Source: Bullifex porci (GTDB taxonomy: Bacteria > Spirochaetota > Spirochaetia > Sphaerochaetales > Sphaerochaetaceae). Taken from it: a DNA stretch of 64,000 nt. Positions 178 through 6,929 of the stretch are shown one piece after another. The notes under the pieces are model-generated. The model was not told the origin of the DNA. It worked only from the letters and a program-made list of their open reading frames with translations, and did not search any database. Made by a program: the position numbers and the translations under genes. The stretch lies in contig NZ_VUNN01000004.1 in the NCBI RefSeq assembly GCF_009695635.1, positions 1-64,000 on the forward strand. Reading direction: 5' to 3'. Each line of letters opens with the position of its first letter. The stretch's first letter is position 1.

Positions 178-897
178 TTACGAAAGCTCACCAAGATATC
201 TAAGAGCAATACCAATAGAAAGTGTTCTTAAGCCATCAGTCTGAATTAATGTTGCGGCATGTAGATAATCATCCCAAGTCATGAGAAATGCATAAATTCC
301 TACAGCCAACATACCAGGCTTTACGAGAGGAGTAATAATCTTAAAAAGAATAGTTCCTCTTCCTGCTCCATCAACATAAGCAGCTTCTTCAAGCTCCTTT
401 GGCACGCTAGCAAAGAAAGAGCTCATTAGCATAGCACAAAATGGGAGCTGAGCTGCACTAATAGCTAAGATAAGACCAGGCATAGTGTTTATTAAGTGAA
501 CCTTACTCATAAGCGAATATAAGCTAATCATTCTACTTACAATAGGGAACATCTGAGTTGATAACAAAATACCACTCATTATTACTGTCCACTTAAAGTG
601 GAAGCGTGCTAAAGCATATCCTGTAAATACAGCAAATAGCGTACAGATAATAGCAGTAATTCCTGATACTATAAAGTTATTTATATAGTAAACGAAGAAT
701 TGATTATTAACTGTAAACAAGGATATATATGCATCTACCGTAGTTTCATTAGGAAAGAAGGTAGGAGGATACATATATGCTTCCATATTAGTCTTAAATG
801 AGGTTGCTAGCATCCAATAGATTGGGAAGAGCAAAAAGAGCAAAATTACTGCTAATATGATGTAACATAGTACTTTAGATAGTGTACGTCCCTTCAT
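178..897 (-). CDS. Carbohydrate ABC transporter permease, MalG family, C-terminally truncated
   Basis: Inner-membrane permease of a sugar importer, partner of the MalF-type protein just upstream (13-base gap). A strong AAGGAGG lies before the ATG. The N-terminal membrane segment (about residues 8-28) and the cytoplasmic EAA loop that docks the ATPase (about 170-195, starting EEAAYVDGAG) are present. The protein is 239 residues, whereas family members usually run to about 270-280 and end with another membrane helix after the region matching the final YLGELS here. The stop codon at 178-180 therefore removes the last segment. No ATPase gene is in the operon; such importers often share a distant MsmX-type ATPase. 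Truncation probably makes this permease defective. Confidence 0.8.
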   Translation of the reverse strand: MKGRTLSKVLCYIILAVILLFLLFPIYWMLATSFKTNMEAYMYPPTFFPNETTVDAYISLFTVNNQFFVYYINNFIVSGITAIICTLFAVFTGYALARFHFKWTVIMSGILLSTQMFPIVSRMISLYSLMSKVHLINTMPGLILAISAAQLPFCAMLMSSFFASVPKELEEAAYVDGAGRGTILFKIITPLVKPGMLAVGIYAFLMTWDDYLHAATLIQTDGLRTLSIGIALRYLGELS

Positions 898-910
898 TTC
901 GCTCCTCCTT

Positions 911-1819
911 TTAAGTCATATCGTAAGTGCGGAAGCACTTATTATAGATGCCAACTGTAATAATCATCAAAAGCATCCAAATAGTTGTAACAGCTGCACC
1001 TGAACCAAGGTTCATACTAACAAAGGCTTCTCTATAAGAGAGAATAGCAAGGTTAGTAGTTGCTCCATCAGGGCCACCACCTGTCATTGTCCAGAATAGA
1101 GGGAACTGCTTAAAGTTCTCAATAATAGACATGCTGACAGCAATCTTTATTACTGAAGCCATATAAGGCATTGTTATCGAGAAAAATCTTCTAGTCTTTG
1201 ATGCTCCATCGATCATAGCAGCCTCTTGAATGTCATCTGGGACATTTTGCAATCCTGCAAGAAGTAAAAGAGTCATCAATGGAATTTGCTTCCAAAGTGC
1301 TGCTATACCTACACCTGTTAAGGCACTATCAGGTTGGTTTAGCATTGCAAATTCAGTCACCTTTCCAAAGGTAACTAAGCTTACTAGATACTTTACTAAG
1401 CCATATTGAGGCTGGAAGAGCCACATCCAAATGAGTGCTGAAATGACAGTTGGGACAACCCAAGGTGTCATCATAATACTTCTAAAGAAACGTGCACCCT
1501 TTATATTTGAATTTAAAACTAAAGCTAATGCCATTCCTAAAACAAATTGAAATACAATAACAAAGACAACAAATACAAAAGTATTTACAACTGCATTTCC
1601 TAAAGCATTAGAGGCAAAGAGCTTAATGTAGTTTGCGAAGTTATTCCAGACTCCAGGTTTGCCACTAATAATATTTTTAACCTTGAAATCCTGAAAGCTT
1701 TTAATTACGGAATCAACAATTGGGATTAAGATAAAAAAGAGGGCAAGTAAGAATGCAGGAATTAAAAGGCAAAAAGAATAAATCCTGTCCCCTCTATTTT
1801 TGGAGTTTAGTTTTCTCAT
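911..1819 (-). CDS. Sugar ABC transporter permease, MalF family
   Basis: Inner-membrane permease of 302 residues, the usual length for stand-alone MalF-type subunits of sugar importers. Six membrane segments can be traced, the first at about residues 14-36, and the EAA loop near residues 197-225 contains EAAMIDGASKTRRFF, the site of contact with the ATPase. A GGAG precedes the ATG. It lies between the binding-protein gene and the MalG-type gene, the standard order. It should form a heterodimer with the MalG-type protein, whose C-terminus is missing, so this importer may no longer work. The substrate is unknown; the sulfatase in the same operon points to a desulfated sugar from a host glycan. 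Confidence 0.88.
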   Translation of the reverse strand: MRKLNSKNRGDRIYSFCLLIPAFLLALFFILIPIVDSVIKSFQDFKVKNIISGKPGVWNNFANYIKLFASNALGNAVVNTFVFVVFVIVFQFVLGMALALVLNSNIKGARFFRSIMMTPWVVPTVISALIWMWLFQPQYGLVKYLVSLVTFGKVTEFAMLNQPDSALTGVGIAALWKQIPLMTLLLLAGLQNVPDDIQEAAMIDGASKTRRFFSITMPYMASVIKIAVSMSIIENFKQFPLFWTMTGGGPDGATTNLAILSYREAFVSMNLGSGAAVTTIWMLLMIITVGIYNKCFRTYDMT

Positions 1820-1840
1820 AATAGTTCTCCAAGATATCGG

Positions 1841-1856
1841 CAGAGCATTAGCCCTG
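1841..1856 (-). other. Small intercistronic hairpin after the sugar-binding-protein gene
   Basis: CAGAGC and GCCCTG flank a four-base loop; on the minus-strand RNA all six pairs form, one as G-U. It lies between the stop of the binding-protein gene (1871) and the start of the permease gene (1819). Similar but stronger hairpins follow the other binding-protein genes here. Likely role: protection of the upstream message from 3-prime decay. Weak on its own. Confidence 0.35.
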
Positions 1857-1870
1857 ACGAAGGAATTAAA

Positions 1871-3145
1871 TTACTGTAGCTTTAATGCTGCTGCTTTCTT
1901 AAATTCTGCAATTGCTTGGTCAACACTCTTATTACTTACTGTAACTGCCTGAGCAAGAGTTGTGAGCTCAAGGTTAAGGTCATTAAGAGCAGGTACTGTA
2001 ACCTGGTGCTTAACATTTGCAACAGAATTAGCTGCACCCTTTAGAATTGGGTTGTTTGCAACGCCTTCCATACCTTCCATTGAGTATGTTGCTGGATAAG
2101 CAGGAGTTACGTTTGCGAGGTAATCACTTAATGTGTCTGCGCTAATTACATATTGAACAAATGCATCAACAGCCTTGTTGTGAGCTTCACCATTATCAAC
2201 AAGTACGAAGCAGTGTGCACTCATTAAAGATTCACCACTACCATTTCCACCCTTAAGAGGTGCTGCAGAAGCTGTAAAGTTCTTTGCATCAGGATTGATT
2301 GAGCTAACACCATTGAAGCCCCAGCTCTGATCGTAATACATTGCAAGCTGACCGAGAGCGAATAAGTTTCTTAAATCCTTAAGCTTAGCATTTTGTGGGT
2401 TATAGCCCATTTCATCTAATAAAGCTAAGGTTTCAAATGCCTGTCTAAAGCCTTCATTATCACAAGAGAGGTTACCATTAGCATCTAATACTTCACCACC
2501 AAAGTTAAATACCATTGCTGTTAATGCTGTACCACTGATAGCTACACTAGCTGTTGTCTGACCAAATGCATATACCTTGTTACCGTTCTTATCCTTAAGC
2601 TGAGAAAGCTTTTCAGCATATTTAAGCATCTCATCATATGTTGTAGGAGGAGTATTTGGGTCAAGTCCAGCTTGAGCAAAGAGGTCCTTATTGTAATAAA
2701 GAACAAATGGAGTTACATATAGAGGAACACCGTAAGCCTTACCGTTGATCTCAAAATCAGCTAAAACACTTGGATAGATATCCTTGATAAAGTCAGCACT
2801 TAAAACTTCATCAACTGGAGCTGCTAAGCCAGCATCCTCAAAGCCTGGAACCCAGCTTGATTCAGAGAAGATTACATCAACTCTATCACCGCCACCAGCC
2901 ATGTTGATAACCTGGTTAACGATTTCTCCATATGGTGCTGTTACCCATTCAATCTTATAGTTAGGATATTTTGCTTCAAAGCCTTCCTTTACACCTTCCC
3001 AGAATGGGATATAGCCCTGCTCTAGAACTGCATAGTTAGCAACTTTAATAGTTACTTGCTCTGATTCAGCCTTTTCTGCAGAACCACCTGCGAAAAGGGA
3101 CATAGCAGTTAACAATGACAATAATAAAACCAAAATCTTCTTCAT
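1871..3145 (-). CDS. Extracellular sugar-binding protein of an ABC importer
   Basis: Periplasmic substrate-binding protein, family 1 (MalE/UgpB-like), 424 residues. The signal peptide (1 to about 19) ends SLFAGGSAEK with an FA cleavage site and no lipobox cysteine, so it is probably soluble periplasmic. Family features include the early YIPFWEGVKEGFEAKYPNYKI segment and the GVPLYVTPFVLYYNKDLF hinge region (about 140-160). AAAGGAGGT precedes the ATG. It lies downstream of the LacI regulator and upstream of both permeases, so it delivers the operon's sugar to them. The substrate is not readable from the sequence; the sulfatase neighbour suggests a component of sulfated host glycans. Confidence 0.88.
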   Translation of the reverse strand: MKKILVLLLSLLTAMSLFAGGSAEKAESEQVTIKVANYAVLEQGYIPFWEGVKEGFEAKYPNYKIEWVTAPYGEIVNQVINMAGGGDRVDVIFSESSWVPGFEDAGLAAPVDEVLSADFIKDIYPSVLADFEINGKAYGVPLYVTPFVLYYNKDLFAQAGLDPNTPPTTYDEMLKYAEKLSQLKDKNGNKVYAFGQTTASVAISGTALTAMVFNFGGEVLDANGNLSCDNEGFRQAFETLALLDEMGYNPQNAKLKDLRNLFALGQLAMYYDQSWGFNGVSSINPDAKNFTASAAPLKGGNGSGESLMSAHCFVLVDNGEAHNKAVDAFVQYVISADTLSDYLANVTPAYPATYSMEGMEGVANNPILKGAANSVANVKHQVTVPALNDLNLELTTLAQAVTVSNKSVDQAIAEFKKAAALKLQ

Positions 3146-5710: not shown

Positions 5711-5739
5711 ATTATCAAATCATATTATCTATCTGTCAA
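5711..5739 (-). promoter_or_regulatory. Promoter of the sulfatase operon
   Basis: On the minus strand TTGACA (5734-5739) is followed after exactly 17 bases by GATAAT (5711-5716), a five-of-six match to the -10 box. The start point would fall near 5704, inside the operator at 5690-5707. This is a strong housekeeping-sigma promoter under repressor control. Confidence 0.8.
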
Positions 5740-5796
5740 CGAAAAAATACATATTATTAAATTCTGAGAAAACCTAGTTTATTATTACAAAGATGA

Positions 5797-5979
5797 TTAA
5801 CGATTTTTTAGATAATCAGATACTTTCTCAACTTCTGCAAGATATTCTTCTACTGTAAGATTTAAACTCATAGCAGCTTGTTCAACAGTTAATAAATGCA
5901 TATTAACTAATTTATTAGTTTGAGCTAAAACACCCATATTATAGCTTTTTTCTTTCATCTGTTTCACAGCTGGCCACAT
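5797..5979 (-). CDS. Stand-alone copy of the Rpn C-terminal domain (candidate free antitoxin)
   Basis: Sixty-residue protein starting MWPAVKQMKEKSYN, nearly the same as the last 59 residues of the Rpn nuclease just upstream (6057-6929), at protein and at DNA level. AGGAGGG lies eight bases before the ATG and the frame is intact to its stop, so it looks translated rather than a dead fragment. It differs from the parent copy by loss of a short SGYN repeat and by a new tail (EKVSDYLKNR). In E. coli, Rpn nucleases are held in check by a small protein made from an internal start that equals the C-terminal part; this gene looks like such a small protein freed by duplication. A decaying remnant is the alternative. 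Confidence 0.65.
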   Translation of the reverse strand: MWPAVKQMKEKSYNMGVLAQTNKLVNMHLLTVEQAAMSLNLTVEEYLAEVEKVSDYLKNR

Positions 5980-6006
5980 ATTATTATCCCTCCTAGTTTA
6001 GAAATA

Positions 6007-6028
6007 AGCCCCACAAATTAGTGAGGCT
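6007..6028 (-). terminator. Hairpin between rpn and its stand-alone C-terminal copy
   Basis: On the minus-strand RNA an eight-pair stem (AGCCUCAC with GUGGGGCU, one G-U) with a six-base loop lies between the Rpn stop (6057) and the 60-residue gene. It is followed by UAUUUCU, a weak U-rich stretch. It could be a partial terminator setting the ratio of the two products, or an mRNA-end stabiliser. Confidence 0.4.
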
Positions 6029-6056: not shown

Positions 6057-6236
6057 TTATTTCTTAAGATTCTTTACAGCAGCAAGATATTCTTCTACTG
6101 TAAGATTTAAACTCATAGCGGCTTGTTCAACACTAAGTAAATGGATATTAACTAATTTATTAGTTTGCATTAATGCACCCATATTATATCCACTATTATA
6201 GCTATCTTCTTTCATCTGTTTTACAGCTGGCCACAT
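6057..6236 (-). CDS. Candidate intragenic small protein within rpn (RpnS-like)
   Basis: In-frame internal ATG (6234-6236) gives a 59-residue product, MWPAVKQMKEDSYN onward, identical to the C-terminal module of the full nuclease. The Shine-Dalgarno AAGGAGG is perfect and ends ten bases before the ATG. The adjacent duplicate gene starts at exactly the homologous methionine, which supports this as a real start. By analogy with E. coli Rpn proteins, where the small form blocks the toxic long form, it may be an antitoxin; that role is inferred. Confidence 0.6.
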   Translation of the reverse strand: MWPAVKQMKEDSYNSGYNMGALMQTNKLVNIHLLSVEQAAMSLNLTVEEYLAAVKNLKK

Positions 6237-6929
6237 CTTTATCTTGCCTCCTTCACTTTTAAATTTAGTATCTAAAGACGATGTTTTATTAAGTATCTTG
6301 AAGGTTAAATCCTCAAGTGAGTTAAACATCTCTTCTTGTTCCATATACTCTTCAAGCCTTTTCTTATTGTTTGAATACTTTAGACAGTTTAATAATAATT
6401 CTAAATCAGTCTTCAGTAAACCTTTTGGAATTTCACTATCCTCTTTAACATCTAATAGTACATATGAGACGTCATCAATAAGATAGCCAAACTTGTCTAA
6501 GTATTCTTTCTCAAACATTGACTTTAACGTTACTGGACTTTTCCATTTATCTCCAGTTAAGTTAAGGACTATAATAATAACAGGTTTAAGAGGTTTAACC
6601 TTTTCTCTTAATTGATAGGTATATAGTAATGCTTTAGCTTTCATTGCTCTAACTACCATGGTTTCATCATGATAGCCTTGAGACTCTAAGCCAATCATTA
6701 TATAGATATTTCTATCATCTTCTTTTAATGATAATTCCTTTAGATTATCAATTAAAACCTCATAGGAGTTATCAGGACCAAAGACCTCTGATCGTACGGG
6801 ATCAAGCTCTTTGAAGTCACTTGGTTTTGTTACCTCTCTACCTTGGTAAAGAGTATAGTTGACTAAATCACTAAATCTATCGGGTTGGTCAAAATACTCT
6901 TTACATATTCTATCTTCTTCTCGTGCCAT
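6057..6929 (-). CDS. Rpn-family (YhgA-like) PD-(D/E)XK nuclease
   Basis: Rpn proteins are DNA endonucleases once annotated as putative transposases and linked to recombination and phage defence. This one has 290 residues, typical length. The nuclease core is recognisable at about 73-100 (NIYIMIGLESQ, the D/E-x-Q type motif, then GYHDETMVVRAMKAKALLYTYQ). The C-terminal 59 residues form a short separate module. AAAGGAGG lies four bases before the ATG. Inside the gene, AAGGAGG at 6247-6253 precedes an in-frame ATG at 6234-6236 exactly at the module border, so a small C-terminal protein is probably made too. Downstream is a duplicate of that module with its own start. Confidence 0.8.
   Translation of the reverse strand: MAREEDRICKEYFDQPDRFSDLVNYTLYQGREVTKPSDFKELDPVRSEVFGPDNSYEVLIDNLKELSLKEDDRNIYIMIGLESQGYHDETMVVRAMKAKALLYTYQLREKVKPLKPVIIIVLNLTGDKWKSPVTLKSMFEKEYLDKFGYLIDDVSYVLLDVKEDSEIPKGLLKTDLELLLNCLKYSNNKKRLEEYMEQEEMFNSLEDLTFKILNKTSSLDTKFKSEGGKIKMWPAVKQMKEDSYNSGYNMGALMQTNKLVNIHLLSVEQAAMSLNLTVEEYLAAVKNLKK

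Follow-up and report, generated by a model that had tools for sequence, protein, structure and literature searches.

A free-standing RpnS-type gene beside rpn in Bullifex porci, and the mismatched repeat lengths of such copies in Spirochaetota

The window, i.e., the whole 64,000-nt stretch of Bullifex porci DNA that was analysed, carries on its minus strand an rpn gene (6057..6929) for a PD-(D/E)XK nuclease-like toxin (RpnL) of 290 aa. The rpn protein matched PF04754 with an E-value of 3.7e-9, above the family cut-off, and residues D43, E82 and Q84 were invariant among 10 relatives. Foldseek with the rpn model returned weak matches with restriction endonucleases on top; a sequence search of rpn against solved Rpn structures gave no match, and a solved-structure search with the RpnS alignment gave nothing meaningful.

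Within rpn, an internal ATG at codon 232 opens an RpnS reading of 59 aa (6057..6236, minus strand; MWPAVKQMKEDSYNSGYNMG...). Its Shine–Dalgarno sequence AGGAGG (6247..6252, minus strand) is shared by a second rpn locus of the same genome and two rpn genes from a congener. The AAGGAGG at this codon scored -11.7, compared with -11.6 at the start of rpn itself; only 0.4% of the minus-strand ATGs in the window were equal or better, and the remaining in-frame ATGs inside rpn all scored -3.7 or above. The C-terminal domain, as modelled by AlphaFold, has helices at residues 233-261, 267-273 and 278-289, i.e., a long first helix and two short ones; RpnAS (PDB 7TH0) also has three helices with a long first one, and the full-length model of the neighbouring rpn agrees with it. 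We took as one mark of the Rpn type a length variation in 4-residue units that starts 8-20 residues past the methionine of the small protein. Such variation was found at residues 13-21, where the free-standing copy described below is four residues shorter, and the second locus four residues longer, than the rpn of the window. The gene thus resembles the known intragenic RpnL/RpnS systems in its nuclease domain, its internal Shine–Dalgarno sequence and start, and its repeat-bearing C-terminal domain. The 59-residue RpnS from the internal start would most likely neutralise RpnL.

On the same strand, 77 nt past the rpn stop codon, another ATG opens a free-standing RpnS-type reading frame of 60 aa (5797..5979, minus strand; MWPAVKQMKEKSYNMGVLAQTNKLVNMHLLTVEQAAMSLNLTVEEYLAEVEKVSDYLKNR), which, in contrast to the intragenic systems, forms a gene of its own and is not part of the rpn frame. 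Its Shine–Dalgarno sequence, AGGAGGG (5988..5994, minus strand), lies 5' of the ATG with a duplex energy of -10.7, a value equalled or bettered by only 0.9% of the minus-strand ATGs in the window. The copy begins at the same methionine as codon 232 of rpn, both reading MWPAVKQMKE. In the core, 43/49 residues and 131/147 nt (89%) are identical to those of the neighbour, far above chance, and nucleotide identity is 0.84 over all aligned codons. The 12 nt absent from the copy are one 4-residue unit, TATAATAGTGGA (YNSG, or SGYN in another register), present in rpn at 6189..6200 (minus strand), where it adjoins a second TATAAT; the indel is in frame and on a unit boundary. The last 12 residues of the copy bear no relation to the parental rpn tail. 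The first-pass annotation had described a separate 60-codon gene that begins at the internal-start methionine behind its own AGGAGGG, and this description was borne out; its mention of a lost SGYN repeat and a different tail agrees with the 12 absent nt and the 12 unrelated residues. A free-standing RpnS-type gene with a proper start site beside rpn is supported.

Pfam searches with the 60-aa protein at E-values up to 1 returned no family, DUF4351 (PF14261) included. PF14261 is reported for free-standing RpnS genes in some species only and is not strictly defining; K-12 ypaA likewise gave no PF14261 match at E-values up to 0.01. In the AlphaFold model of the copy, helix 1 was broken and of low confidence (pLDDT 48 for residues 1-10), and 7TH0 was absent among the Foldseek matches listed.

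Between rpn and the copy lies a terminator-like hairpin (6007..6028, minus strand), which belongs to the rpn unit; it recurs 3' of the second rpn, where no copy is present. No promoter-like site stood out near the copy, and such sites were no commoner there than in shuffled sequence. With the hairpin between the genes and no standout promoter for the copy, the earlier idea of a step towards a classic two-gene system is not clearly supported. On the 3' side of the copy, a promoter-like TTGACA-17-GATAAT (5711..5739, minus strand) reads into the next gene, which is sulfatase-like; because this site lies between them, the copy is not the leader of the sulfatase-like gene. The copy is also flanked by a 9-bp direct repeat, TAAACTAGG, at 5992..6000 on its 5' side, overlapping the Shine–Dalgarno sequence, and at 5773..5781 on its 3' side (both minus strand). 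Insertion with target-site duplication was considered for this repeat and set aside; a 9-nt match in this geometry has a chance of about 0.011, i.e., chance alone gives such a repeat about 1% of the time.

The genome carrying the window (2.42 Mb in 67 contigs, 96.7% complete) has its second rpn on the same contig (C34:97363-100299), 91 kb from the first. An IS1634-family transposase gene (583 aa) interrupts this second rpn and is flanked on each side by a duplicate of about 80 bp of rpn; the locus looks like two half genes but is one gene split by the element. The two rpn genes share 97.6% of nucleotides in codons 1-183 (the nuclease part) and 88% in the C-terminal domain, where they are one 4-residue unit apart. 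The block common to both loci runs from about 75 nt 5' of the rpn ATG through the hairpin and ends about 20 nt before the copy ATG, shortly before its Shine–Dalgarno sequence. In a five-sequence tree, the copy fell outside the pair formed by the neighbour and the second locus (support 0.81). Its divergence, its place in the tree, the end of the common block and the copyless second locus indicate that the copy is unlike a recent duplicate of its neighbour. A recent origin had been claimed for it; this is contradicted by the tree and by 84% identity to the neighbour, against 97.6% between the nuclease parts of the two loci. The antitoxin was also said to have moved out of the toxin gene, but both the internal start and the C-terminal domain are still present in the neighbour; therefore, the copy is a duplicate and was not relocated. 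The copy may go back to an older duplication, or it may be what is left of the C-terminal end of a resident rpn, next to which a mobile rpn unit came to lie. Gene conversion from the copy to the neighbour was rejected, because the sites that these two share and that differ in the second locus are mostly changes private to the second locus.

The neighbour and the rpn of the congener (L026) are 98.5% identical in nucleotides in the nuclease part and about 77% in the C-terminal domain, a pattern that we read as horizontal movement of a gene whose C-terminal domain changes fast. The nearest relative bearing a name is a Spirochaetales bacterium MAG; it has an rpn that matches the one in a genome of the same genus. 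A scan of genome contigs for close relatives found the congener alone, and a scan of viral contigs found none.

We also assessed selection on the copy. The 43/49 core identity is more than neutrality would predict for the pair (P about 0.0014) in a test that includes the constrained neighbour branch. The changes private to the copy branch are mostly non-synonymous. An open frame at the divergence of the copy survives neutral drift with a probability of about 0.4-0.6.

In E. coli, RpnS is produced from a start site inside rpn and neutralises RpnL (Zhong et al. 2023; PMC10327210). The number of 4-residue units in helix 1 varies (PMC10327210), and RpnCL is blocked only by RpnCS with an equal repeat number, a difference of a single repeat being enough to abolish neutralisation (PMC10327210, Fig. 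4D legend). A free-standing RpnS, ypaA/rpnES, lies 3' of rpnE, and its protein has been detected; in some strains, a second, free-standing rpnCS of independent origin lies 3' of rpnC (PMC10327210). Because free-standing RpnS is already published for E. coli, the window copy is a further case of a known arrangement. Like the window copy, ypaA is a C-terminal copy directly 3' of its own rpn on the same strand, with homology from the RpnS Shine–Dalgarno sequence on, another tail and another unit number. It differs in belonging to another nuclease subfamily and another phylum, and it abuts the rpn stop codon, whereas 77 nt with a terminator-like hairpin separate the genes in the window; moreover, the ypaA product is shown to be made, whereas that of the window copy is predicted. 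The second rpnCS is also a free-standing C-terminal copy of mismatched repeat length, but it does not begin at the internal methionine; it starts at an ATG of its own and has additional residues at the N terminus.

We compared unit numbers in E. coli, counting those of rpnE and ypaA by hand from alignments. The 11 rpnE/ypaA loci gave six pairs, (0,1), (5,1), (5,2), (8,6), (8,4) and (5,0), none of them equal, and the rpnC loci with a copy all differed in repeat length (6/6). This mismatch alone is not beyond chance, the parents having 0, 5 or 8 units and the copies 0, 1, 2, 4 or 6. For both rpnE and rpnC, the free-standing copies were open in all haplotypes examined. Two E. coli strains without ypaA (L144 and L152) carry a ypaA-type tail on full-length RpnE, indicating that embedded and free-standing C-terminal versions are exchangeable; the arrangement fits a deletion running from one domain to the other, or the opposite change.

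Next, we surveyed 123 rpn genes of Spirochaetota, together with flanks of up to 1.5 kb per side (345 kb in all), for C-terminal-only copies on the same strand that begin no more than 400 nt downstream. Six were found, i.e., the window copy, L018, L024, L076, L108 and a decayed one at L041; there was no N-terminal-only copy in this survey except tandem genes cut by the locus edge. An extended survey of 247 ORFs, some of them unreliable, added L210, an N-terminal remnant at L191 and several decayed copies of nearly full length, bringing the downstream C-terminal-only copies in Spirochaetota to seven, one of them decayed. These are few events in a non-random sample drawn from the best family matches. 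The partial matches at L032 and L133 were discarded as adjacent rpn genes truncated at the edge of the locus, and the minus-strand ORFs of L183 and L249, as well as L264, all from the extended survey, as unreliable.

All six intact Spirochaetota copies differ from their neighbour in the length of the repeat region (copy minus neighbour, in residues: window -4, L018 +16, L024 -8, L076 -4, L108 +28 and L210 -24). The L210 copy is 98% identical in nucleotides to its neighbour outside the -24 change, indicating that length can change with nothing else changed. A decayed full-length duplicate at L211 has a C-terminal domain with a repeat length equal to that of its neighbour. The mismatch pattern is consistent from case to case, which does not prove that it is selected.

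Two of these copies come from the genome of the window and from the congener. In the same genome, on contig C1, the L018 copy (894-1124, minus strand) lies beside an rpn at 1480-2352 (minus strand); it is longer by four 4-residue units (FSQG), and its Shine–Dalgarno sequence is identical. On contig C53 of the congener, L024 carries a free-standing C-terminal copy of 80 aa (1420-1662, plus strand), whose upstream homology to its own rpn ends near the Shine–Dalgarno sequence.

We propose, at about even confidence, that the window copy is a diverged C-terminal module, i.e., a prior or alternative specificity that remained, or was duplicated, next to rpn, and not the antitoxin of its neighbour. 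This reading is the likeliest of those weighed, decay is its main rival, and an auxiliary antitoxin is less likely. The copy would most likely yield a 60-residue three-helix protein, the first helix of which would carry the specificity-setting 4-residue units. As the C-terminal domain of the neighbour has one unit more, and given the RpnC rule of equal repeat number, the copy most likely has no neutralising effect on the neighbouring RpnL; the claim in the first-pass annotation that it is the neighbour's antitoxin is disfavoured on the same ground. The copy may be able to recombine with the C-terminal domain of rpn itself and perhaps neutralises an Rpn variant of matching length.

If the copy were instead a non-functional remnant drifting to loss, it could have arisen when the 3' end was duplicated in situ, or it could stem from a resident rpn displaced by an incoming unit. 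The common block that stops after the hairpin, just before the copy Shine–Dalgarno sequence, and the position of the copy outside the neighbour and second-locus pair (support 0.81) would both fit such a history, as would the replaced tail, the lack of clear constraint in the changes on the copy branch and the decayed copies elsewhere (vestiges at L041 and L079 in other genomes); the open frame is weakly informative here. A drifting remnant fits less well with an intact ATG, a near-perfect Shine–Dalgarno sequence and an indel that is in frame and on a unit boundary, nor does it match E. coli, where the free-standing copies are open in all haplotypes examined and ypaA is translated (PMC10327210). 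We regard decay as possible, on the unlikely side. It is improbable, in our estimate, that the copy serves as an auxiliary antitoxin, a second cistron adding to the amount of RpnS available against the neighbouring RpnL. Adjacency on the same strand, the shared start methionine, the strong Shine–Dalgarno sequence and the 43/49 identical core residues are what such a cistron would have, and a free-standing RpnS is made in E. coli (PMC10327210). However, the copy is one 4-residue unit short in the very helix where RpnC needs an equal number, its tail is unrelated to that of the parent, a terminator-like hairpin separates the two genes, and all comparable intact pairs examined are mismatched.

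The comparative point is what is new here, namely that free-standing RpnS recurs in Spirochaetota with mismatched repeat length. The purpose of free-standing RpnS beside a gene with its own antitoxin is so far unexplained in E. coli. In the window and the other spirochaete cases, it arises repeatedly with a specificity-setting repeat length unlike that of its neighbour, and this recurrent mismatch argues against a simple backup antitoxin. It is conceivable, though doubtful as a general statement, that free-standing RpnS genes in general are both repeat-mismatched and alternative-specificity modules, i.e., antitoxins against other Rpn variants and exchangeable C-terminal domains. If so, rpn loci would be small specificity-switching cassettes.

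In other Spirochaetota, two or more rpn genes were found in tandem or close together at L045, L210, L216 and L243.
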